This document shows positions 642 to 19,517 of a stretch of 21,249 bases of DNA, piece by piece. Source of the stretch: a virus; the IMG/VR virus record IMGVR_UViG_3300033144_000504, positions 1 to 21,249 of that record; one strand, written 5' to 3'. The notes below the pieces were generated by a model that did not search any database, was not told where the DNA came from, and was given only the letters and a program-made list of their open reading frames with translations. Position numbers and translations under genes: made by a program. Within the stretch, counting starts at the first letter, position 1. Every line of letters begins with the position of its first letter.

Positions 642-1763
642 ATGAATATTGAAATGCAAACTAAGGAACAAGTCATCTTTTTTATGATGTCTACCTCTAT
701 TAGTTTATCTCATTACGATTACAAGTTTATATCAAACATGCAGTCCTTGACCCATGACAAAAAGCAGATTACATCTGGTCAAGCAGAGTTGTTTGATAAA
801 CTTTTGCACAAGTACAGAAAGCAATTTGCAACTAACGGGTTTGACTCAGGCGAATTAGTTATGTTGCCTTGGAAATGTCCTATTGTACCCAGTCTTCCTA
901 AATACACAAATGCTAATGTTGATTATGATGAGAGTACAAATCAATTGACTATTAGAGTCCCTTTTAAAAAGGACTTTATCTCTAACTTTAGAAAGGCAAT
1001 GAATGATCAATTTCCAGTTAATGATATAAACAACTCTGGAGATATTTGGCAGTGGCAAACTGAAAGTAAACGATACGAAGCAAAGCCTACTACCAGTGCA
1101 TTAAAGTTAGCATACGAAATATTGCCTCAATACTTTACAACAGTGTATCATAATGAAGTAAAAGACGTAATTCAAACATTAGAACAAACTGAAATAGAAT
1201 ACAAAGACCCGACATTGGTCTGCGTTGACGGAAAATATTCTATTGAATGTTCTAATTACGTGTTGGATGAGTTACTTGCAGACGTAACTTTGAATAACAC
1301 ACCTCAATGTCTATATCGAATGTCACAATTAGGTATAAATGTTGATGAGTCAGTCACACAGAACGATGAGAAATTATTGTTCGCATCATCTTATATTGTA
1401 GAATGTGATATAGATGATATCAACGATTGGTGTGAGTGGCTTAAAGAGTTGGATGTGGATGAAATTCTGTTAGGACGTGGCAGCCCACAATCCGGCGCAC
1501 TAGAACGAGTCACTGGTCGTTCAGCAGGCTTAGAAATCTTTAAAGAAGCACGGAATGCTTTTAAAGAATATGAGTTTGTAATGCATAAGAGTAGAGACTT
1601 ACTAGATAGTGAAAGTGCCTACTCATATGAAGGACCAAGCAGTACCAGTCTTCCTGTTTTAGTGCAATTTAACTCAATCGTTGAACCCGAACAATGTCAC
1701 GGGGCAGATCGCAATGGCAAAATTATTATAATTACAAATAGGAGAACCGTAAATATATCATAA
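642..1763 (+). CDS. Conserved phage protein of unknown function
   Basis: This 373-residue protein is not recognised with certainty. Near the N-terminus (about residues 36-60) it has a segment, ITSGQAELFDKLLHKYRKQF, of a kind I recall at the start of some phage helicase-associated proteins. There is no signal peptide, membrane segment or nucleotide-binding loop. The protein is acidic in its middle part. It opens the unit after the terminator at 568-594, and its stop overlaps the ATG of the receptor gene by one base (TAATG), so the two are probably co-transcribed. UvsW lies one gene further on, so a role in recombination or replication is possible but is only inferred from context. Confidence 0.8.
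   Translation: MNIEMQTKEQVIFFMMSTSISLSHYDYKFISNMQSLTHDKKQITSGQAELFDKLLHKYRKQFATNGFDSGELVMLPWKCPIVPSLPKYTNANVDYDESTNQLTIRVPFKKDFISNFRKAMNDQFPVNDINNSGDIWQWQTESKRYEAKPTTSALKLAYEILPQYFTTVYHNEVKDVIQTLEQTEIEYKDPTLVCVDGKYSIECSNYVLDELLADVTLNNTPQCLYRMSQLGINVDESVTQNDEKLLFASSYIVECDIDDINDWCEWLKELDVDEILLGRGSPQSGALERVTGRSAGLEIFKEARNAFKEYEFVMHKSRDLLDSESAYSYEGPSSTSLPVLVQFNSIVEPEQCHGADRNGKIIIITNRRTVNIS
1749..1755 (+). promoter_or_regulatory. Possible late-type promoter GTAAATA before the receptor gene
   Basis: GTAAATA ends seven bases before the ATG at 1763. It resembles the phage's other TAAATA elements, and transcription from it would begin about two bases before the start codon. The only purine-rich ribosome site, AGGAGA (1740-1745), is 17 bases from the ATG and would be lost from such a transcript. 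A TATAAT at 1727-1732 lacks a -35 partner. Confidence 0.3.
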
Positions 1764-3361
1764 TGTTTAAAATATCAGAAGAAGAAAAAAACTTCCACAT
1801 AAATTTTAGTCCTTTATATGCAGTAATAGTATTCATGCTATTCATGTTGTGGGCTAACGAAACACAATCGCAAGAAATTGAAGAAGTACTAGTAACAGGT
1901 GCGTACACTTACGAAACTGAATCAGATCCATCTAATGACGTAAATGTTTTAGAGTCAATTATACCTGAAGCAACAATATCTGGGGGTTACGGTTCTTTCA
2001 TGGGGTACAATGAACGTGGTACTCAAACTATACACACAACTATTTTTAGAAATGGTGTTCCTGCTAATGACGCCGGTAGTGGATGGTATGACTTCGGTCA
2101 TGATTTTGCGACAGGCAATGAAAAAGTAAAAATAGTAAATGGACCAACATCAGTTTTATATGGATCTGGTAGTTTGGGCGGTGCGATTTTTATTACTGAT
2201 GACCTGCAAGATGGCTCAGTCATTAGAGTCGGTGATACTACATTTGTCAGTCATACAAAGAACGGACTTAATCTTAGTTACTTTGATGCGAACAATGATA
2301 GTGTAAGAACTGACAATGATGAAAAAGACGGATACAATAACTTTACACTCAAAGGACAAAAAGAGTTTGGTGATTGGAAAGTAAATGTGTCTGGTACATC
2401 ATACGACTATGACTATGACAATTGTTATACTGCAAGTTTCTCACAGTCAAATGATTGTGTGCAATCAGGAAACAAAGGAACCTTATCAGTAAGGAATGAT
2501 AACTACACATTTGGTTATACATTTAATGATGCTGAATACGACACTGAAGGTGTGCAAACATACGAAAGTGAAGCAGAAAGAGCCTATGTAGATACTAGAC
2601 ATCAAGTTGGATCTACCCTAGTAGGTGGAACTGTAGAATATGAAAAGTATTCAGAATTTAGTAAGAACGAAATTTCAGTATATTCATTAACTGACTTTGA
2701 TTGGTTTGATCTAGGTTTTAGATTAAGTGAAGATGCATTTGTATATCGTGTAGGTGCAGAACGTGACAATTGGTTTGGTAGTTTCGGTACATCATATCGT
2801 AACCCAACTCTTTATGAACTGAATGGTGATGCTTGGACTTTACCTAACAAAAGTTTAGACCCTGAAGAAGCAGTAGGTGGAGAGATTGGATACAAGAACT
2901 TTACAGTATTCAAATACAAATTTAGTGAAGGTATCGATTACAGTTTTTCAGAATCAAAGTTTGTCAATACTGGTTCATACGATACTGAAGGCATTAGATA
3001 TACAAACGGGTTCTCAGTTAAGAGACTTAACATTACTAACATTGGTATAGAGTTAGGGTACACTAACAGTGATCAACCTCGTATTCCTGAATACAAAGCA
3101 ATCATTACATCTACAACTGACTTAGGTGGATATGATATCTCATTTAGATACACTGGACTATTCAACAGAGAGCCCGGTGCATATGATGGCACAGCAATGT
3201 TAGATCATGTTAGTTCACTTGACTATAAGATTGAGAAAACATTCCCTAACTTCTTGCTTTCATTTACAGTAAGAGATATACTTGATAATGACTTTGAGTT
3301 TGTACCTAACTACTCAGCAGGTGGTTTAGAATACTTCTTAACACTACAATTTAGGCCGTAA
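1763..3361 (+). CDS. TonB-dependent outer-membrane receptor homologue
   Basis: This 532-residue protein looks like a compact TonB-dependent transporter, a 22-strand outer-membrane barrel with a plug that imports iron-siderophores, vitamin B12 or similar ligands using host TonB-ExbBD. Residues 1-37 form a signal peptide with a hydrophobic core at about 18-31 (LYAVIVFMLFMLWA). A TonB-box-like IEEVLVTG follows at 39-46. The plug (about 47-150) has the expected FRNGVPAND at 95-103 (like the family's IDGVPxN) and VKIVNGPTSVLYGSGSLGG at 122-140 (like VEVLRGPxSxLYGSxxxGG). It seems about 20-30 residues shorter than usual at its start. The rest has alternating aromatic/polar barrel-like strands, with a Cys221-Cys232 pair that could close an external loop. 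It ends in LEYFLTLQFRP, close to the family's aromatic C-terminal strand. Overall length is near BtuB (about 594 residues precursor). It sits between phage genes, with a one-base overlap upstream and four bases before uvsW. The ligand cannot be read from sequence. It could instead mask receptors or compete for TonB. Confidence 0.85.
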   Translation: MFKISEEEKNFHINFSPLYAVIVFMLFMLWANETQSQEIEEVLVTGAYTYETESDPSNDVNVLESIIPEATISGGYGSFMGYNERGTQTIHTTIFRNGVPANDAGSGWYDFGHDFATGNEKVKIVNGPTSVLYGSGSLGGAIFITDDLQDGSVIRVGDTTFVSHTKNGLNLSYFDANNDSVRTDNDEKDGYNNFTLKGQKEFGDWKVNVSGTSYDYDYDNCYTASFSQSNDCVQSGNKGTLSVRNDNYTFGYTFNDAEYDTEGVQTYESEAERAYVDTRHQVGSTLVGGTVEYEKYSEFSKNEISVYSLTDFDWFDLGFRLSEDAFVYRVGAERDNWFGSFGTSYRNPTLYELNGDAWTLPNKSLDPEEAVGGEIGYKNFTVFKYKFSEGIDYSFSESKFVNTGSYDTEGIRYTNGFSVKRLNITNIGIELGYTNSDQPRIPEYKAIITSTTDLGGYDISFRYTGLFNREPGAYDGTAMLDHVSSLDYKIEKTFPNFLLSFTVRDILDNDFEFVPNYSAGGLEYFLTLQFRP

Positions 3362-3365
3362 TTAA

Positions 3366-4826
3366 ATGCCAGGAATAGCAACATTAAAAATTAAAGATGA
3401 AGTCAATCTAAAAATTGATGGACTTGAGTTAGATGCTCGTAGGGCACTAATGCAAAAGTTTGAGTTTGAGGTTCCTGGCGCACGTTACATGCCCAGTGTT
3501 AAGTTGGGAAGGTGGAACGGTAAGGTTAGTTATTGTAGTCTTGCCGGTTCTACTTACATCAATCTATTAGAAGACATTGTTCCTATCTTAGAAGAACTGA
3601 ACTATACAATTGAATTGGAAGACATGCGTGAATATCAAACGCAGTTTCAATTTGAAGAAGTTCATAAAGATTCTTTTAAAGACGTACTGTGGCCTAAAGG
3701 ACATGTCTGTGAGGGGCAACCAATTGAACTTAGAGACTATCAAGTTCAAGTTGTTAATGAGTTCTTAAAGAATCCTCAATCGATACAAGAAGTGGCTACA
3801 GGCGCAGGAAAGACTATTATGACAGCCGCACTAAGTAAAAGTGTAGAATCATATGGTCGAAGTATTGTGATCGTACCTAACAAAAGTTTAGTATCACAAA
3901 CCGAAGAAGATTATATCAACATGGGTTTAGATGTAGGTGTATACTTTGGTGATCGTAAAGAATATTTTAAACAACATACTATTTGTACTTGGCAATCTCT
4001 AAACATTCTATTAAAGAATACGAAAAGAGGTGAAGTAGAATGTACTATAGGAGAGTTCATTGAAGGTGTTGTTTGTGTCATTGTAGATGAAGTACATATG
4101 GCAAAAGCAGATGCATTGAAGCAACTGTTAACAGGCGTAATGTCACATGTTCCCATCAGATGGGGACTAACAGGAACCGTACCCAAAGCAAAGTATGAAT
4201 CAATTGCTTTGCAAGTAAGTTTAGGTCCTGTTATTAATAAACTATCTGCAAAAGAATTGCAGGATAAAGGAGTACTTGCTAAGTGTCACGTGAACATAGT
4301 ACAGTTACAAGACGAACAGGAGTTCAGTAACTATCAAAGTGAACTAAAACATTTACTCAGTGATGAAAAACGATTAGATAAGATGGCGAGTCTGATTGAT
4401 ACAATACAGGAGTCGGGTAATACTTTGATTCTTGTTGATCGTATCGCGGCAGGACATGCCCTTGTTGAACGTTTAGATGATGCAGTCTTTGTATCAGGAG
4501 GCATGAAAGTAAATGACAGAAAAGAAGAATATGATGACGTTGCCATTAGTGATAATAAAATCATTGTTGCTACTTATGGCGTGGCTTCTACTGGTATCAA
4601 TATTCCTAGGATTTTTAATCTTGTACTCATTGAACCAGGTAAGAGTTTTGTTCGTGTCATACAGTCAATCGGTCGTGGCATTCGTAAAGCAGAAGACAAA
4701 GACTTTGTTCAAATCTGGGACTTAACTAGTTCTTGTCGTTTTGCGAAAAGACACTTAACTCAACGTAAACATTTTTATAGAGAAGCAAACTATCCGTTTG
4801 TCGTAGAAAAATTAAACTACAAATGA
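3366..4826 (+). CDS. uvsW: UvsW-type SF2 DNA/RNA helicase
   Basis: This 486-residue protein matches T4 UvsW (about 500 residues), which unwinds R-loops and remodels or reverses replication forks during recombination-dependent replication. A small N-terminal DNA-binding domain (about 1-105, with GRWNGKVS at 48-55) precedes the two RecA-like lobes. The Q-motif-like ELRDYQ is at 121-126, Walker A ATGAGKT at 144-150, the DEVH box at 241-244, GLTGT (motif III) at 267-271 and QSIGRGIR (motif VI) at 433-440. All the main superfamily 2 motifs appear intact. The ATG lies four bases after the receptor gene's stop and has no clear Shine-Dalgarno site, so translation may be coupled to the receptor. The 49 bases after it carry a promoter. 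Confidence 0.95.
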   Translation: MPGIATLKIKDEVNLKIDGLELDARRALMQKFEFEVPGARYMPSVKLGRWNGKVSYCSLAGSTYINLLEDIVPILEELNYTIELEDMREYQTQFQFEEVHKDSFKDVLWPKGHVCEGQPIELRDYQVQVVNEFLKNPQSIQEVATGAGKTIMTAALSKSVESYGRSIVIVPNKSLVSQTEEDYINMGLDVGVYFGDRKEYFKQHTICTWQSLNILLKNTKRGEVECTIGEFIEGVVCVIVDEVHMAKADALKQLLTGVMSHVPIRWGLTGTVPKAKYESIALQVSLGPVINKLSAKELQDKGVLAKCHVNIVQLQDEQEFSNYQSELKHLLSDEKRLDKMASLIDTIQESGNTLILVDRIAAGHALVERLDDAVFVSGGMKVNDRKEEYDDVAISDNKIIVATYGVASTGINIPRIFNLVLIEPGKSFVRVIQSIGRGIRKAEDKDFVQIWDLTSSCRFAKRHLTQRKHFYREANYPFVVEKLNYK

Positions 4827-6653: not shown

Positions 6654-7042
6654 ACACAGTAGAAGTACACTTACAATTTTATCAATTGGATGGTCGATGG
6701 AAAGGACATGACATGTTTAAGTGGTGTTGTGTTACTAAAACTCCTCCTAAGTATGAACGTTTTCATCCTAGACCTCTAGCACATTCTGATTTGTCTTCTA
6801 TCATAAATTTTAATAAAGTACGAGATTGGTGTTGGGATACATGGGGACCTAGTTGTGATATGAAAGATTATGACAGGGTGCATGAACTGTCAAACTTTAT
6901 GAGCCTTGCACAATACAATGACAGTACATACGATACACTAAATGAAAACTGGTGTTGGTCTAATGAAGAAGATCATAAGCAACGTAGAATATATCTAGCA
7001 GGTGATGAAGAACGTGTGTGGCTAGAAACGAGGTGGCAATGA
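6650..7042 (+). CDS. Small Trp/Cys-rich protein, possibly Api92-like
   Basis: This is a 130-residue protein. The start is taken as TTG at 6650, overlapping the upstream TGA in TTGA; GAGG at 6635-6638 is 11 bases before it. An internal ATG at 6704 is a less likely alternative because it would leave a 50-base gap in otherwise overlapping genes. The protein is rich in Trp and Cys. Its middle part (INFNKVRDWCWDTWGPSCDM, about residues 46-65) recalls the WxxxNWGTKW pattern of Api92-like proteins with a ferredoxin-like fold, but this is a weak resemblance. No catalytic motif is seen. The stop overlaps the next start (ATGA). Function unknown. Confidence 0.7.
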   Translation: MNTVEVHLQFYQLDGRWKGHDMFKWCCVTKTPPKYERFHPRPLAHSDLSSIINFNKVRDWCWDTWGPSCDMKDYDRVHELSNFMSLAQYNDSTYDTLNENWCWSNEEDHKQRRIYLAGDEERVWLETRWQ

Positions 7043-7833
7043 GTCAATGGCACGGTGGAAAAGGTTCCGCACCTAGAAAGGGTGAGAATCAAAAAGCCTA
7101 TGCCGCTAACTATGATCGTATCTTTGGTCAAGTATCTAAACTTTCACATGAAGGTCGTGGCTTTGACATCAAAAAGAATGTCATATCAGACGACCTTATT
7201 CAACGTATAAACGATAGAAAAGATGAACTCTACCCTGTACGAGCATCCACACATAAGAAGCAGTATGCAGAAGCAGAGGCATGTAAAAAACTGTTTGGCA
7301 TTGCTGTATGGTGGAGTCAACTTACAGATGATTGGGACGAAGTAAAAGAGATACATGAACTTATCTATCCTGAAATTAGCAAACATTTAGATGATGCAGT
7401 ATTCTATGCAAGTGATATCGTAACAATCAATGGTCCAAGCAGATGGGTAGGACCTCACATTGATACACCGCATCGATTTAAAAAATATAATAAAAGAGAA
7501 AACAATGATGTCTGTGGCATACAAGTTATCATTCCACTTGATGACTTAGACAAAGACACAGGAGCAACTGGACTTATCCCTTACAGTCATCAGAAAGATT
7601 GGGATATACAAGATTGCTATGAAGGTTTGCATGATGAATACTTTTTAGAAAATGCAGAACAGTATGATATGCCAAAAGGTAGTATCTTGTTTTATAATAC
7701 TCGTTTGATGCATTCTACTATGCCATTGCATTTACCCAAAAAACGTTCCATTCTATTGATTAATTACCTCAGAAGTGATATAATAGTAGAAATAAGAAAC
7801 GAAGATAACGTATGGAGTAGTAATGGCAAATGA
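7039..7833 (+). CDS. PhyH-family Fe(II)/2-oxoglutarate dioxygenase with a phage N-terminal peptide domain
   Basis: This 264-residue protein belongs to the phytanoyl-CoA dioxygenase-like (PhyH) fold of Fe(II)/2-oxoglutarate oxygenases, which hydroxylate small molecules, lipids or modified bases. The iron facial triad is visible as H140-x-D142 (GPHIDTPH) and H225 (RLMHSTMP). R236 (KKRSILL) is the likely 2-oxoglutarate binder. Residues 1-30 (WHGGKGSAPRKG at 4-15, then NYDRIFG at 24-30) match a short phage peptide that I know mainly as a separate small gene, so this looks like a fusion. ATG 7039 is chosen because GAGGTGG (7030-7036) precedes it and it overlaps the upstream stop as ATGA; a GTG at 7018 is also in frame. 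The substrate is unknown. Confidence 0.88.
   Translation: MSQWHGGKGSAPRKGENQKAYAANYDRIFGQVSKLSHEGRGFDIKKNVISDDLIQRINDRKDELYPVRASTHKKQYAEAEACKKLFGIAVWWSQLTDDWDEVKEIHELIYPEISKHLDDAVFYASDIVTINGPSRWVGPHIDTPHRFKKYNKRENNDVCGIQVIIPLDDLDKDTGATGLIPYSHQKDWDIQDCYEGLHDEYFLENAEQYDMPKGSILFYNTRLMHSTMPLHLPKKRSILLINYLRSDIIVEIRNEDNVWSSNGK
7756..7784 (+). promoter_or_regulatory. Sigma70-like promoter inside the dioxygenase gene
   Basis: TTGATT (7756-7761), a 17-base spacer and TATAAT (7779-7784) with an extended -10 TG two bases upstream (7776-7777) form a near-ideal promoter. Transcription should begin near 7791, giving a leader of about 32 bases ahead of the exonuclease ATG at 7823 with GGAG at 7815-7818. 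It would express the exonuclease-to-deformylase genes independently of upstream genes. Confidence 0.75.
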
Positions 7834-8943: not shown

Positions 8944-9202
8944 TGAAGTCGTACAACGACAAAGAGAACTATTAGAGGCCGAAGAATGGGCTAAAGGCGT
9001 TAAGGCCGTTCATGCACATTCATTTACGTCACTGTGGTATGAAACAAATCCAGATAGAACAGGTGATGATTTACGTGTGTTAGATGTAGAATATAATGAT
9101 AGTACGGTTCATCGACAATATATTGTATCAGGCAAGACAGAAATAATCGGCACACCATTGAAAGGTGATGCATTAAGAGACAAATATTTAAGTAGGGGAT
9201 AA
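8930..9202 (+). CDS. Small protein of unknown function
   Basis: This is a 90-residue protein with no recognised domain. The N-terminal 30 residues are charged and likely helical (RQRELLEAEEWAKGVKA). The rest looks like short strands. The ATG at 8930 lies within the end of the upstream gene and follows a strong AGGAGAAGG-type ribosome site (about 8920-8929). Its stop overlaps the deformylase ATG (TAATG). The tight overlaps on both sides support it as a real gene. Function unknown. Confidence 0.75.
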   Translation: MGQYDEVVQRQRELLEAEEWAKGVKAVHAHSFTSLWYETNPDRTGDDLRVLDVEYNDSTVHRQYIVSGKTEIIGTPLKGDALRDKYLSRG

Positions 9203-9759
9203 TGGAAGAATTTACACTTGAACTAATACCAGAAAGAGATCCTAGATTAAAGGAACCTTGTGAACCATGGGACTTTAAACTTGACGGTGATCCAACTGAA
9301 TTAATTAAAGCAATGACTAAGGTTATGTTTAATCCTAATCATCCTGGTATTGGTTTAGCGGCACCTCAGTGCGGTGTAATGAAAAATATATTCATCATGG
9401 GTACAGATGAAAAGTTAATGGCTTTTATCAATCCTCAAGTCGATGAACTAAAAGGTGAAAAAGAATTATTCCTAGAAGGGTGTTTAAGTTTTCCTGATCT
9501 ATGGTTACATGTTCCAAGACACTCTGAATGCGTAGTATCTTATCAACAAATTGACGGGGAAGTTGTATCAGACAAACATCTTACTGGTATGCAAGCCCGT
9601 GTATTCTTACATGAGTTTGATCATCTATTAGGCGTAACGTTTGAAGAACGTGTGCAAAGTAAAATGAGTTTAGAATTGGCTAAGAAACGTAGAGCAAAAA
9701 AGATACGTCAAAAGGCTAAGATGATTAAGAGACTTAGTAAGACCGCTTCACTAAAGTAA
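9202..9759 (+). CDS. def: Peptide deformylase
   Basis: This 185-residue metalloenzyme removes the N-terminal formyl group from new polypeptides. All three family motifs are intact: GIGLAAPQ (49-56), EGCLS (92-96) with metal ligand C94, and HEFDH (137-141) with ligands H137 and H141 and catalytic E138. The C-terminus (about 152-185) is a highly basic tail with many Lys and Arg, perhaps for ribosome contact. Deformylases are known in marine T4-like phages, where they are thought to aid turnover or maturation of host and phage proteins. The native metal is usually Fe(II). The 3' end overlaps the 3' end of the minus-strand gene by 26 bases, and no terminator lies between these convergent genes. 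Confidence 0.96.
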   Translation: MEEFTLELIPERDPRLKEPCEPWDFKLDGDPTELIKAMTKVMFNPNHPGIGLAAPQCGVMKNIFIMGTDEKLMAFINPQVDELKGEKELFLEGCLSFPDLWLHVPRHSECVVSYQQIDGEVVSDKHLTGMQARVFLHEFDHLLGVTFEERVQSKMSLELAKKRRAKKIRQKAKMIKRLSKTASLK

Positions 9760-10218: not shown

Positions 10219-11019
10219 GTGTCTTACACTACATCAGTATATACATATACAGTCAGACAAGTCGTTGTGGTTCTGTCAGGCACAAGCCCGAGGAAATATA
10301 TGCCAGTTTATTCAAAACCATTAACGTTAAATAAAGGCGTTGACAATCAATTACAGTTTCAGTTTCTGAATCAGGAACAGAAGCCTGTGGATCTATCATC
10401 AATTGCTACAGCAAATCAACAAATATCTTTTAGAGCAATTAATTCAGATGGTACCGAAATCCTTTTAAGAAAAGCATTGACTCCAGTGTTCGATGTCAAT
10501 GGTATTTTTCAATTGAATACGACTGCCGCAGAAATTGAAAACATTGAATCACAACAATGTTATTATTCATTAGAATGGCCAAGTGGTAATCTTAATTTAC
10601 CTGTATTTGTAGATTCTAAAGCAGGAGCAAGAGGAGACTTAAACATAGTTGACTCTATTCTCCCTTCATATGTTCCTTCACAACTAGTTACAATACCCAG
10701 TGATGAAACTTTACCAAATGCAAATGCAAATGCAAACTCTGAAGCAGTAACATTTTACTCAAGTATTATTAATACACAAGACAATCCTGTACTTACTACA
10801 TCAATTGACTACAAAGATTATGTTGGTAACGTAACACTACAAGGTTCTACTCTCGTTGATTCTGGATTCTATGATATCAATTCGTATCGATATGGCAATG
10901 CCGCAAATGGTGCTAGTGAGTCTGGAACTATAGGGTATACTATCAGCGGTTATCATCCGTTTATCAAAGTTAAATTTGAAGCAAATGTGGGTAACATTGT
11001 AACTATTTTGGCAAGATAA
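10219..11019 (+). CDS. Virion/baseplate-type structural protein (BppU-like N-terminal pattern)
   Basis: With GTG 10219 as start the protein has 266 residues. This start is chosen because AGGAGA (10204-10209) is nine bases upstream and the late promoter just before it; a TTG at 10174 lies upstream of that promoter and can be rejected. The segment from MPVYSKPLTLNKGVDNQLQFQFLN (about 28-51) resembles N-terminal domains of phage tail or baseplate proteins such as the BppU type, and I recall close relatives among structural proteins of T4-like cyanophages. The rest is beta-rich. Residues about 168-173 are a short Asn-Ala repeat (NANANAN) coded by repeated GCAAAT, which may link an N-terminal particle-bound part to a C-terminal beta domain. 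Late expression fits a particle protein. Confidence 0.82.
   Translation: MSYTTSVYTYTVRQVVVVLSGTSPRKYMPVYSKPLTLNKGVDNQLQFQFLNQEQKPVDLSSIATANQQISFRAINSDGTEILLRKALTPVFDVNGIFQLNTTAAEIENIESQQCYYSLEWPSGNLNLPVFVDSKAGARGDLNIVDSILPSYVPSQLVTIPSDETLPNANANANSEAVTFYSSIINTQDNPVLTTSIDYKDYVGNVTLQGSTLVDSGFYDINSYRYGNAANGASESGTIGYTISGYHPFIKVKFEANVGNIVTILAR
10713..10735 (+). repeat. Short tandem repeat of GCAAAT in coding sequence
   Basis: About four copies of an AATGCA/GCAAAT six-base unit code for alternating Asn-Ala in the structural protein at 10219-11019. It lies at the junction of the two apparent domains. Such a repeat could vary in copy number by slippage, which would change linker length without shifting frame. 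Confidence 0.7.
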
Positions 11020-11033
11020 GTTATCCAATCTTC

Positions 11034-11062
11034 TTGTTTTCACTCTAAATTTATCGTATAAT
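11034..11062 (+). promoter_or_regulatory. Sigma70-like promoter, predicted near-leaderless start
   Basis: TTGTTT (11034-11039), a 17-base spacer and TATAAT (11057-11062) form a good promoter. Seven bases separate TATAAT from the primase ATG at 11070, so the transcript should start on or within a base of the start codon. No Shine-Dalgarno sequence is present before the gene. It drives primase and helicase. Confidence 0.75.
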
Positions 11063-11069
11063 AACAAGT

Positions 11070-12044
11070 ATGTTTGATATACTTACGATTGTCCCTGGCA
11101 AAAAGAAACAGACGCAGAGTGGATGGACTTCATTCAATGCGCCTTGTTGTCAGCACAATGGGCATAACCCTGATAAAAGAATGCGAGGGGGTATTAAAGC
11201 AGACGGAGATGATTGGCAATATCATTGTTTTAATTGTGGCTTTAAGTGTGGCTTTAAATTAGGTAGAGCAATTAGCAAACGTACACGTAACTTCTTAACG
11301 TGGTGTCATATGCCAGACCAAGATATTAATAAATGGTCTTTGCATTCTATTCAGCACAAAGATTTGTTAGATTCTATTTTACGTAAAAAGAAACAAATTA
11401 AGTTGCCGAAGTTTAAAGAACAACCAATGCCAGAAGGTGAGTTGATTTATACTGCAAACAAAGATCATCAAGTGTATATTGATTACTTGAACAAAAGAGG
11501 ATTACAACATAATGATTATCCTTTTATGGTTAACCCTACAGCACAAGGTAGACAAGCGGAAGGTATAATTATCCCTTATACATATGAAAACAAAGTTGTT
11601 GGTAGTACAATTAGATTTATGGACGACAGAAATCCTAAGTTCATAAATGATCAGCAACAAGGATATGTGTTTGGTGTTGATTTACAAAAAGAAGAATGGC
11701 AAGTTGTATTAGTATTTGAAGGTATCTTTGATGCGATTTCAATGAATGGATTAGCATTGACACATGATACAATTAATGACAATCAAGTTGCTGTAATTAA
11801 CAAATTGGGTAAACGTGTTATTGTTGTTCCTGATCAGGATCAAACAGGTTTAGGCATCTGTGAAAGAGCATTAGAACTAGGTTATGATGTGTCTTTACCC
11901 AACTGGTCAGAAGATATTAAAGATGCAAATGATGCTGTAATTAAATATGGTCGTCTGAATACATTACTAAGTATATTAGACTCTGCTACAAACAGTAAAA
12001 TAAAAGTAGAAGTTATGAGGAATAAAATTGCTAAAAGAATTTAA
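11070..12044 (+). CDS. 61: DNA primase, T4 gp61 type
   Basis: This 324-residue protein matches the T4 gp61 primase (342 residues), which makes RNA primers for lagging-strand synthesis with the gp41 helicase. The N-terminal zinc-binding domain has Cys/His ligands within C26-C27-x-H29 and C53-x2-C56 (YHCFNCGF). The TOPRIM domain has VFEGIFDAIS with E217 and D221, then VVPDQDQTG (253-260 region) with D255 and D257 for metal binding. The zinc-binding and TOPRIM motifs I would expect are visible and appear intact. It starts with ATG 11070 under the promoter at 11034-11062 without a ribosome site. Its last 17 bases overlap the helicase gene, the usual sign of coupled synthesis of two primosome partners. 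Confidence 0.94.
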   Translation: MFDILTIVPGKKKQTQSGWTSFNAPCCQHNGHNPDKRMRGGIKADGDDWQYHCFNCGFKCGFKLGRAISKRTRNFLTWCHMPDQDINKWSLHSIQHKDLLDSILRKKKQIKLPKFKEQPMPEGELIYTANKDHQVYIDYLNKRGLQHNDYPFMVNPTAQGRQAEGIIIPYTYENKVVGSTIRFMDDRNPKFINDQQQGYVFGVDLQKEEWQVVLVFEGIFDAISMNGLALTHDTINDNQVAVINKLGKRVIVVPDQDQTGLGICERALELGYDVSLPNWSEDIKDANDAVIKYGRLNTLLSILDSATNSKIKVEVMRNKIAKRI

Positions 12045-13443
12045 CGTAGAAGTACAAGAATTGTTCTTAAGAATGATGATAACAAACGCAGAGTTGTTTG
12101 TTAGGGTCAATAATATCTTTAACGCAGAAAACTTTGATAGAAGATTAAGACCTGTTGCAGAATTTATGAGAGAACATTCAGAGCAATATAAAATATTGCC
12201 GGACTCTACACAAATCAAAGCAACAACAGGCGAAACAATCGACATGGTCGAGGGTATGGATGAAGGTCATTACGACTGGTTTATGACTGAATTTGAATCG
12301 TTTACTCGTAGACAAGAATTAGAAAGAGCAATCATGTCATCGGCAGACTTGCTAGAGAAAGGTGACTATGATCCTGTTGAAAAGTTAATCAAAGATGCAG
12401 TACAAATATCATTACAAAGAGACTTAGGTATCGATTACTTTGAAGATCCTAGGGCTCGTCTTATGCATCTTAAATCTAGTAATGGTCAAGTATCATGTGG
12501 TTGGCCCTGCTTAGATCAAAAACTCTATGGGGGTTTTAATAAGGGCGAACTGCAAATCTTTGCTGGGGGTTCGGGTTCAGGTAAGTCATTGTTTATGCAA
12601 AATCTATCAGTCAATTGGGTAGAGCAAGGCTTATCAGGGGTGTACATCACACTAGAATTGAGTGAAGAACTATCAGCAATGCGTATTGATTCTATGTTGA
12701 CTGATACCAAGTCTAAGGAAGTATTTAAAGACTTAGACAATGTTGAAATGAAAGTTAAGATGAAACAAAAAGCCGCAGGTAACTTTAGAATTAAATATAT
12801 GCCGGCTCAGTCTACAGTAAATGATTTGAGAGCATATGTTAAAGAATTACAGATACAAACAGGCATGAAATTAGACTTTATGTGTGTTGACTATTTGGAT
12901 TTGTTAATGCCAGTAAGTGCTAAAGTAAGTCCTAGTGACTTGTTTGTTAAAGACAAGTATGTATCAGAAGAATTACGTAACTTGGCAAAAGAGTTTGATT
13001 TAGTATTCGTAACTGCATCACAGTTAAACAGAAGTTCAGTTGATGAAATTGAATTTGATCACAGTCATATCTCAGGTGGTATATCAAAAATCAATACAGC
13101 AGACAACGTATTCGGTATCTTTACGTCACGTAGCATGAGAGAACGCGGTCAGTATCAAATTCAGTTAATGAAGACAAGATCAAGTTCAGGGGTAGGACAA
13201 AAAGTCGAATTAGCATTTGATATTGAGACATTGCGTATTACAGACCCAGGAACTAACGCACCAACACATAATACATCACAACCATCTGCACAAGCAATTA
13301 TGGATAAGTTTAAAACTACATCACAAGTAGGGCAGACTAATGAAATAGTCGAAAATCAAGTAGAGCCTGAAGAAAAAAGAGTCAATGGTGATGTACAAAG
13401 TACAAAATTAAAATCATTACTTAATACTTTGAAAGACAAATAA
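12028..13443 (+). CDS. 41: Replicative DNA helicase, T4 gp41 (DnaB-like) type
   Basis: This 471-residue protein fits T4 gp41 (475 residues), the hexameric 5'-3' helicase that drives the fork and binds primase. An N-terminal helical domain (about 1-140) leads to the RecA-like core. Walker A is GGSGSGKS (180-187), and the Walker B strand is LDFMCVDYLDLL with D288. SQLNRSS, later in the core, fits the DnaB family H3-type motif, and residue segments after it (HISGG, LMKTRSS) fit the loop and arginine-finger region. The start is TTG at 12028, with GAGGAA (12016-12021) upstream and overlap with the primase gene. The C-terminal 70 residues are low in complexity, rich in Gln, Asn and Thr, and may be a flexible tail for partner binding. 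Confidence 0.93.
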   Translation: MLKEFNVEVQELFLRMMITNAELFVRVNNIFNAENFDRRLRPVAEFMREHSEQYKILPDSTQIKATTGETIDMVEGMDEGHYDWFMTEFESFTRRQELERAIMSSADLLEKGDYDPVEKLIKDAVQISLQRDLGIDYFEDPRARLMHLKSSNGQVSCGWPCLDQKLYGGFNKGELQIFAGGSGSGKSLFMQNLSVNWVEQGLSGVYITLELSEELSAMRIDSMLTDTKSKEVFKDLDNVEMKVKMKQKAAGNFRIKYMPAQSTVNDLRAYVKELQIQTGMKLDFMCVDYLDLLMPVSAKVSPSDLFVKDKYVSEELRNLAKEFDLVFVTASQLNRSSVDEIEFDHSHISGGISKINTADNVFGIFTSRSMRERGQYQIQLMKTRSSSGVGQKVELAFDIETLRITDPGTNAPTHNTSQPSAQAIMDKFKTTSQVGQTNEIVENQVEPEEKRVNGDVQSTKLKSLLNTLKDK

Positions 13444-19199: not shown

Positions 19200-19517
19200 A
19201 TGGAAGTCACAGATATAGCAAAAACAAAAATTAAAGACCATTTAGAAAACCGTGGTAAAGGTATCGGAATTCGTATAGGTATTGAAACTACTGGCTGTAG
19301 TGGATATGCTTATAAACTTGAATTCGCAGATGCTATCAATGACGAAGACATCATTAATGAGTACGACGGATTTTCTATATTAATAGATCCTAAGGCTAAC
19401 AGCATACTTGAAGGAATCACAGTAGACTATCAAAAGCAAGGTTTGAATGAAGGTTTTGAATTCATCAATCCTTTAGAGAAAGCACGTTGTGGTTGCGGAG
19501 AGAGTTTTACAATTTGA
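19200..19517 (+). CDS. A-type iron-sulfur cluster carrier (IscA/SufA/ErpA family)
   Basis: The 105-residue protein matches the length and pattern of HesB/IscA-type carriers, which bind Fe-S clusters and pass them to target proteins. The conserved cysteines are present: C33 in TTGCSGYAY, and C99 and C101 in RCGCGESF close to the C-terminus. The start ATG at 19200 is chosen by the promoter layout and matches the family's usual N-terminus (VTDIAKTKIKDHL). Homologues are known from marine phage genomes as auxiliary metabolic genes. It lies in a late-type promoter context and shares TTGA with the next start. Which of IscA, SufA or ErpA is closest cannot be judged. In this window it pairs functionally with the TonB-dependent receptor. 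Confidence 0.93.
   Translation: MEVTDIAKTKIKDHLENRGKGIGIRIGIETTGCSGYAYKLEFADAINDEDIINEYDGFSILIDPKANSILEGITVDYQKQGLNEGFEFINPLEKARCGCGESFTI

Follow-up and report, generated by a model that had tools for sequence, protein, structure and literature searches.

The window analysed here is the whole 21,249-nucleotide stretch of the IMG/VR virus record IMGVR_UViG_3300033144_000504. Near its left end lies the C-terminal part of an AAA-like ATPase gene (PHROG 1250; positions 41 to 550), for which the AAA assignment comes from our reading of the full-length homologue in L005. It is followed by a gene for a 373-residue protein (642 to 1763), by the gene for a 532-residue TonB-dependent receptor resembling the vitamin B12 receptor BtuB (1763 to 3361), and by the DNA helicase gene uvsW (3366 to 4826), recognized by profile matches and locus comparison. 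All four genes are on the plus strand. The receptor gene fits tightly between its neighbours, as the first-pass annotation had pointed out: its start codon shares one base with the upstream stop (CATAATG), and four bases (3362 to 3365) separate it from the ATG of uvsW at 3366. Its base composition resembles that of the neighbouring genes. No T4-type late promoter (TATAAATA) was found within the window.

The receptor begins with a Sec signal peptide (residues 1 to 36; 1763 to 1870), recognized from sequence, conservation and a hydrophobic peak around residues 13 to 30, the n-region of which (KNFHINFSPLY) is unusually long and conserved. Cleavage probably occurs directly before QEIEE; relatives carry a conserved AxA-like site followed by (D/Q)EIEE. 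The Ton box IEEVLVTG (residues 39 to 46; 1877 to 1900) aligns with DTLVVTA of BtuB, and its residues I39, E40, E41 and V44 are at least 90% conserved among 71 rows. Next comes the plug domain (residues 47 to 146; 1901 to 2200), delimited by Pfam, conservation and the BtuB alignment, whose N-terminal part is shorter than that of BtuB. A search with the plug families gave a match above the curated cut-off for residues 61 to 141 (PF07715, E 1.3e-8, profile positions 27 to 107 of 107), and PF07715 was also matched by all 30 of 30 family rows. The Pfam barrel family PF00593 did not match the window protein and matched 4 of the 30 family rows, the best at 1.2e-11. The top NCBIfam match was TonB-B12 (TIGR01779; E 2e-11, 43.1 bits), a model also matched by 24 of 30 family members. 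Since the BtuB equivalog cut-off of that model is 599.7 bits, the receptor counts, by this rule, as BtuB-like and not as a BtuB ortholog.

The remainder of the protein is a 22-stranded beta-barrel (residues 151 to 530; 2213 to 3352). An AlphaFold2 model built from 71 phage homologue rows, which replaced a poorer 30-row model (pLDDT 68.6), reached pLDDT 81.7 and pTM 0.81 and has exactly 22 barrel strands, the number that TonB-dependent receptors need. In this model, strands 1 to 6 span residues 151-157, 159-166, 169-178, 189-202, 205-218 and 232-244; strands 7 to 12 span 248-261, 264-282, 285-296, 299-311, 315-322 and 326-334; strands 13 to 18 span 337-346, 368-377, 380-394, 399-419, 425-436 and 444-454; and strands 19 to 22 span 457-467, 483-493, 497-506 and 521-530. 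The C-terminal strand is aromatic-rich, as first described, but it ends in a proline (QFRP) and in neither Phe nor Trp. Taken together, the signal peptide, the Ton box, the plug match and the 22-strand model strongly support the presence of a complete TonB-dependent receptor within a T4-like phage genome, which had been proposed from the letters of the sequence.

By fold as well as by profile and sequence, the nearest ligand class is that of the B12 transporters. At least 15 of the first 17 Foldseek matches in the PDB were E. coli BtuB or other B12 transporters. The top VIA-align match was the BtuB:TonB complex 2gsk (Z 34.9, 2.6 A over 488 residues), ranks 1 to 15 were B12 transporters, and the heme receptor ChuA came next (Z 30.2). 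Searching PDB sequences with the single window protein gave no match, and a profile of 30 relatives found BtuB and nothing else. Homology to E. coli BtuB (TIGR01779; PDB 2gsk, 1nqh) extends over the full length (23% identity, E 2e-14; hhalign 97.9%), and the two proteins have in common a Ton box, a plug, a 22-strand barrel and acidic residues in extracellular loops L2 and L3. In contrast to BtuB, the mature phage receptor is about 100 residues shorter, its plug lacks part of the N-terminal unit, L5 and L8 are turns, L3 has an invariant Cys pair, and the letters of the plug apices are different. In addition, it scores 43 bits against an equivalog cut-off of 600, and no riboswitch was found in the phage.

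Conservation, measured in a family with members down to about 38% identity, is highest at the plug apices (residues 73 to 86 and 98 to 118; 3.58 and 3.75 bits). High values were also obtained for L9 (3.57 bits), the Ton box (3.56), L2 (3.37), L3 (3.19) and L7 (3.05), compared to 2.67 for the strands and a whole-protein mean of 2.76, while most periplasmic turns and L4, L5 and L8 are poorly conserved. Plugs of TonB-dependent receptors are generally better conserved than barrels, and part of the plug conservation is therefore expected. Conserved apices and ligand-side loops are, in turn, what would be expected if the family binds one ligand. The pattern of apices, Ton box, L2, L3 and L9 speaks for a receptor that takes up a single common ligand more than for a passive decoy.

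Two of these loops deserve attention. Model, BtuB alignment and conservation place L2 at residues 179 to 188 (DSVRTDNDEK; 2297 to 2326), in which D184, N185 and E187 are near-invariant; D189 comes next, and the stretch coincides in position with the L2 calcium site of BtuB. L3 comprises residues 219 to 231 and is considered here together with Cys232 (2417 to 2458). D217 and D219 are near-invariant acidic residues of this region, D219 being kept in every sequence, and the site matches the position of Y229-D230 in BtuB. The calcium cage residues of BtuB we take to be D179, D193, D195, D230 and D241. L2 and L3 of BtuB have been placed at residues 177-197 and 227-241, with a calcium cage of five aspartates (PMC7360065). 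The acidic phage residues therefore sit at calcium-cage loop positions, in a part of the alignment that is gapped. Because of these gaps, and because similar L2/L3 acidic motifs are present in other BtuB-like receptors, the motif supports the subfamily and not the ligand. The Cys221/Cys232 pair singled out earlier is invariant in 71 of 71 rows, and it may form a disulfide clamp in L3. Strand boundaries and positions in the sequence are the basis of what is said here on both the pocket and the disulfide. In the clade of the window, L5 and L8 have shrunk to turns of two and four residues, whereas in one sister subclade they are long, up to 62-73 residues. Such short loops count against cobalamin as the ligand: according to work cited in PMC7360065, E. 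coli BtuB binds B12 less well when part of L8 is removed.

The gene occupies a recurrent genomic site. Downstream of the receptor, uvsW is the next gene in 89 of 120 loci, and the PHROG 1250 gene lies upstream in 94 of 120; these two genes form the right and left borders of the insertion site. In the subclade of the window, the 373-residue gene stands between the PHROG 1250 gene and the receptor. Relatives with uvsW about 67-76% identical have the same neighbours and no receptor, which leaves a clean empty site. In many of these receptor-less relatives the homologue of the 373-residue gene abuts uvsW directly, and this gene is thus a marker of the empty site and not a dedicated partner of the receptor. 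A second receptor position, between a nucleosidase-like gene and baseplate genes, accounts for seven tree rows, and the tree requires four changes between the two positions. The baseplate genes resemble T4 gp25 and gp5; we named the genes at this position by reading their sequences. Each of 13 contigs searched has a single receptor copy. The wider group includes another 16 contigs on which no plug domain was found, and four of these are 335-364 kb long. As the contigs are fragments, absences of this kind are weak evidence.

The carriers are jumbo T4-like phages. The best uvsW relatives among isolates are Phosso, PA5oct, Atu_ph07 and GAP32, and uncultured relatives of the window contig reach 335-364 kb; on these sequence relationships, the window contig is assigned to the same group. 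We take the carriers to be marine, from the phage group and our reading of the sample series. A Gp23 capsid model gave no match, and its control was silent as well. Empty sites and plug-less relatives indicate that jumbo T4-like phages from the environment carry the receptor repeatedly, as an accessory gene. The first-pass annotation, which did not regard such a gene as a common part of T4-like genomes, is right for deposited isolates but not for these environmental phages. It was also right in considering an assembly error unlikely. Identical copies of the gene are present on two other contigs, which, together with the adjacent uvsW, shows that it is not a chimera. Assembly error and bacterial contamination were both discarded given at least 172 contigs with relatives, the constant neighbour and a composition like that of the surrounding genes.

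Scanning IMG/VR with the single protein turned up relatives on 79 contigs, from 100% down to about 30% identity, and a scan with the alignment raised the number of contigs encoding relatives to at least 172. Cellular homologues are a different matter. An alignment scan of 84,980 bacterial and archaeal species genomes, which used short conserved peptides and so misses distant homologues by design, found no close cellular homologue (47 pattern matches, two of them weak local relatives). Plasmids gave distant BtuB and other TonB-dependent receptors, one small bacterial phylum gave weak matches, and deposited phages had no relative except BtuB records that look bacterial but are filed as phage. 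A tree built by a quick method, with a small bacterial sample of 13 receptors, placed all 71 of 71 phage sequences in one fully supported group on a long branch. These data suggest that the relatives form one deep phage-only clade, of which bacterial genomes have so far shown no member. A recent origin from a named bacterium was discarded on the same grounds, with no close bacterial relative and a single long branch holding the phage receptors.

The receptor gene is under purifying selection, with dN/dS of 0.08-0.23 among near relatives. Distances between receptors track those between UvsW proteins (Mantel r 0.785, 0 of 999), which indicates that the gene has long been resident in jumbo T4-like phages. 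Alleles have also been swapped at the fixed locus, judging from sequence comparisons: between L060/L061 and L036/L037/L040, UvsW is 98.4% identical and the receptors are about 62% identical. Likewise, synonymous divergence between the window and L006 amounts to 0.84 in the receptor gene against 0.18 in uvsW, which points to allele replacement.

Putative TonB-dependent receptors have been noted before in large phages. A fold search of BFVD returned one clear viral match, A0A8D9FQQ5 ("TonB-dependent receptor SusC [uncultured marine phage]", E 3e-10), which we connect by name to Mar_Mega_1 (OU342829.1). It is larger (805 residues), with TM 0.61/0.43 to the window receptor. The marine megaphage Mar_Mega_1 is annotated with a putative TonB-dependent receptor "SusC", said to be present also in LR745206, as an annotation only (PMC9723777). 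This is likewise a TonB-dependent receptor of a large environmental phage, although of a different phage lineage. LR745206 gave two plug-domain matches, and tblastn of the window receptor against it gave no match at E 1. Pelagiphage Skadi has a "TonB-dependent receptor" annotated among tail and capsid genes and read as adsorption-related (PMC10504331). Its likeness to the present protein is in name only and its description sets it apart; the receptor family had no match at E 1 in the deposited phage collection that could be assigned to the Skadi annotation. The T4-like methylophage Melnitz encodes the curli pore genes csgGF, proposed to act in lysis control (PMC9004378). These are also outer-membrane channels of a marine T4-like phage, but they differ in fold and family and would serve lysis and not import.

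The best-supported function of the receptor is import, because the whole anatomy of energised transport, including the Ton box, has been kept and the ligand-facing parts are the most conserved. We give a probability of about 0.6 to a phage-owned, BtuB-type TonB-dependent importer that would work in the infected cell. Sec would export the receptor during infection, the BAM machinery would fold it into the outer membrane, and host TonB-ExbB-ExbD would energise it there via the conserved Ton box. One scarce small ligand, most likely cobalamin or a related corrinoid, would bind between the plug apices and L2, L3, L7 and L9, and its import would support phage replication. Expression, localisation, transport, ligand and benefit are all inferred. 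On 13 contigs, all of them fragments, neither TonB (PF03544) nor a BtuF-like binding protein (PF01497) was matched, which suggests reliance on the host for the inner steps. The earlier idea of a phage importer for iron, cobalamin or another nutrient is thus retained as far as import is concerned, and the ligand side is narrowed to a BtuB-like receptor.

Cobalamin or a related corrinoid is the leading guess for the ligand, although a tentative one. BtuB comes first by profile, sequence and fold, and siderophore receptors rank lower. On a sister contig, the receptor of which is 83% identical, another gene product combines B12-binding and radical-SAM domains and might consume cobalamin on the side of the phage; jumbo relatives that have no plug domain carry this type of protein as well. 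No cobalamin riboswitch or other Rfam element was found in the regions scanned, from five sources. Supply of cobalamin to a B12-dependent ribonucleotide reductase was rejected, as both sister contigs that carry the enzyme encode class Ia NrdA/NrdB and not the B12-dependent class II. Among the bacterial relatives whose L2/L3 pattern is similar, some receptors lie next to ABC substrate-binding or iron ABC genes. Such neighbours, and plug apices that align with those of BtuB and are conserved among phages but have not kept the E. coli BtuB residues, mean that likeness to BtuB does not prove B12.

These observations lead to iron, the strongest of the alternatives and still a rather unlikely one. 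An importer for a ferric siderophore would feed class Ia ribonucleotide reductase, PhyH-type oxygenases and Fe-S proteins. Genes for an IscA-like Fe-S protein and a PhyH-type 2OG-Fe oxygenase lie in the window itself, the class Ia enzyme is present on the two sister contigs, and a BtuB-like bacterial receptor adjoins iron ABC transporter genes. The consistent ranking of B12 transporters above siderophore receptors argues against this explanation. As for heme, receptors of that class (TIGR01785/TIGR01786) have an axial histidine in L7 between FRAP and NPNL motifs. No histidine is present in the L7 segment (residues 342 to 370) of the window protein or of the relatives inspected, and a canonical bis-His heme receptor was therefore rejected.

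A role in competition between phages or in protection from bacteriocins is clearly unlikely, but several features fit it. The receptor would occupy TonB through its Ton box, or replace host receptors by a loop-poor one, blocking entry of TonB-dependent phages or colicins; TonB sequestration and a superinfection block had both been named as alternatives in the first-pass annotation. Few parts are as well conserved as the Ton box, L5 and L8 are reduced to turns in the clade of the window, and the alleles swapped next to a nearly identical uvsW would suit such a conflict. However, a TonB trap needs the Ton box only, and conservation peaks at the plug apices and in the loops on the ligand side, while the sister subclade carries long L5 and L8 loops. 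A mixed explanation, by which a loop-poor phage receptor replaces that of the host and imports cobalamin while offering TonB-dependent competitors fewer loops, seems improbable as well. It is highly improbable that the gene is a useless bacterial capture, a virion component or misassembled sequence, considering its many carriers at a constant site, purifying selection, the deep phage-only clade, its composition, and a Sec signal unsuited to a virion part.

Putative TonB receptors in megaphages and the single Skadi annotation were already known; the present family is different and compact. What is new is a compact, BtuB-like, phage-only clade of TonB-dependent receptors at a fixed site in jumbo T4-like phages. 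In the open-access literature, we found no report naming phage- or virus-encoded TonB receptors by phrase, and none joining auxiliary metabolic genes with a phage BtuB.

Most of the auxiliary metabolic genes known from viruses exert their effect within the cell. A phage-owned BtuB-type importer, if this is its true function, would mean that phages also remodel uptake at the outer membrane and in this way change who obtains the vitamin B12 or iron present in seawater. With this family, the few TonB receptors recorded from viruses gain a compact barrel of the BtuB type. It also connects to the proposal that nutrients and phages vie for shared receptors, and makes it testable whether a micronutrient limits infection. 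In this regard, our results suggest that jumbo phages may rework the uptake of the infected cell from seawater.

In seven loci (L048, L052, L054, L058, L059, L116 and L121) the phage-encoded BtuB-like TonB-dependent receptor occupies a second genomic site. A nucleosidase-like gene borders it there on one side and baseplate genes resembling T4 gp25 and gp5 on the other, as read in L048, L054 and L116. In the tree, second-site receptors were interspersed with those located beside uvsW. In alignment A1, the receptor N-termini of loci L034-L079 carry signal peptides of two interchangeable types, one reading KNFHINFSPLY... and the other EEFFHKHILKITFIIC..., and both precede an almost identical mature receptor, as in L046 versus L061. 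When L060/L061 were compared with L036/L037/L040, the adjacent uvsW was still 98% identical while receptor alleles had been wholly replaced.

Plug domains were also located in the megaphage LR745206.1 (79335-79634 and 138255-138581), in two frames of 883 and 666 codons. Two more phage proteins, secreted by appearance and one with long Asn-Thr repeats, are encoded at L005:1-2189 (-).

The window itself encodes a PhyH-type 2OG-Fe oxygenase (7018-7833, +), a peptide deformylase (9202-9759, +) and an IscA-like Fe-S cluster protein (19200-19517, +; TIGR02011, E 2e-39). The PhyH-matching frame is far longer in several relatives (about 600 codons or more).

Contig L256 (IMGVR_UViG_3300018416_002064) carries a phage-encoded B12-binding and radical-SAM protein (10337-12685, -), a possible cobalamin user, adjoined by a DegT-type aminotransferase fragment. 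Relatives of this protein were found in 183 IMG/VR contigs, including jumbo contigs of 335-364 kb.
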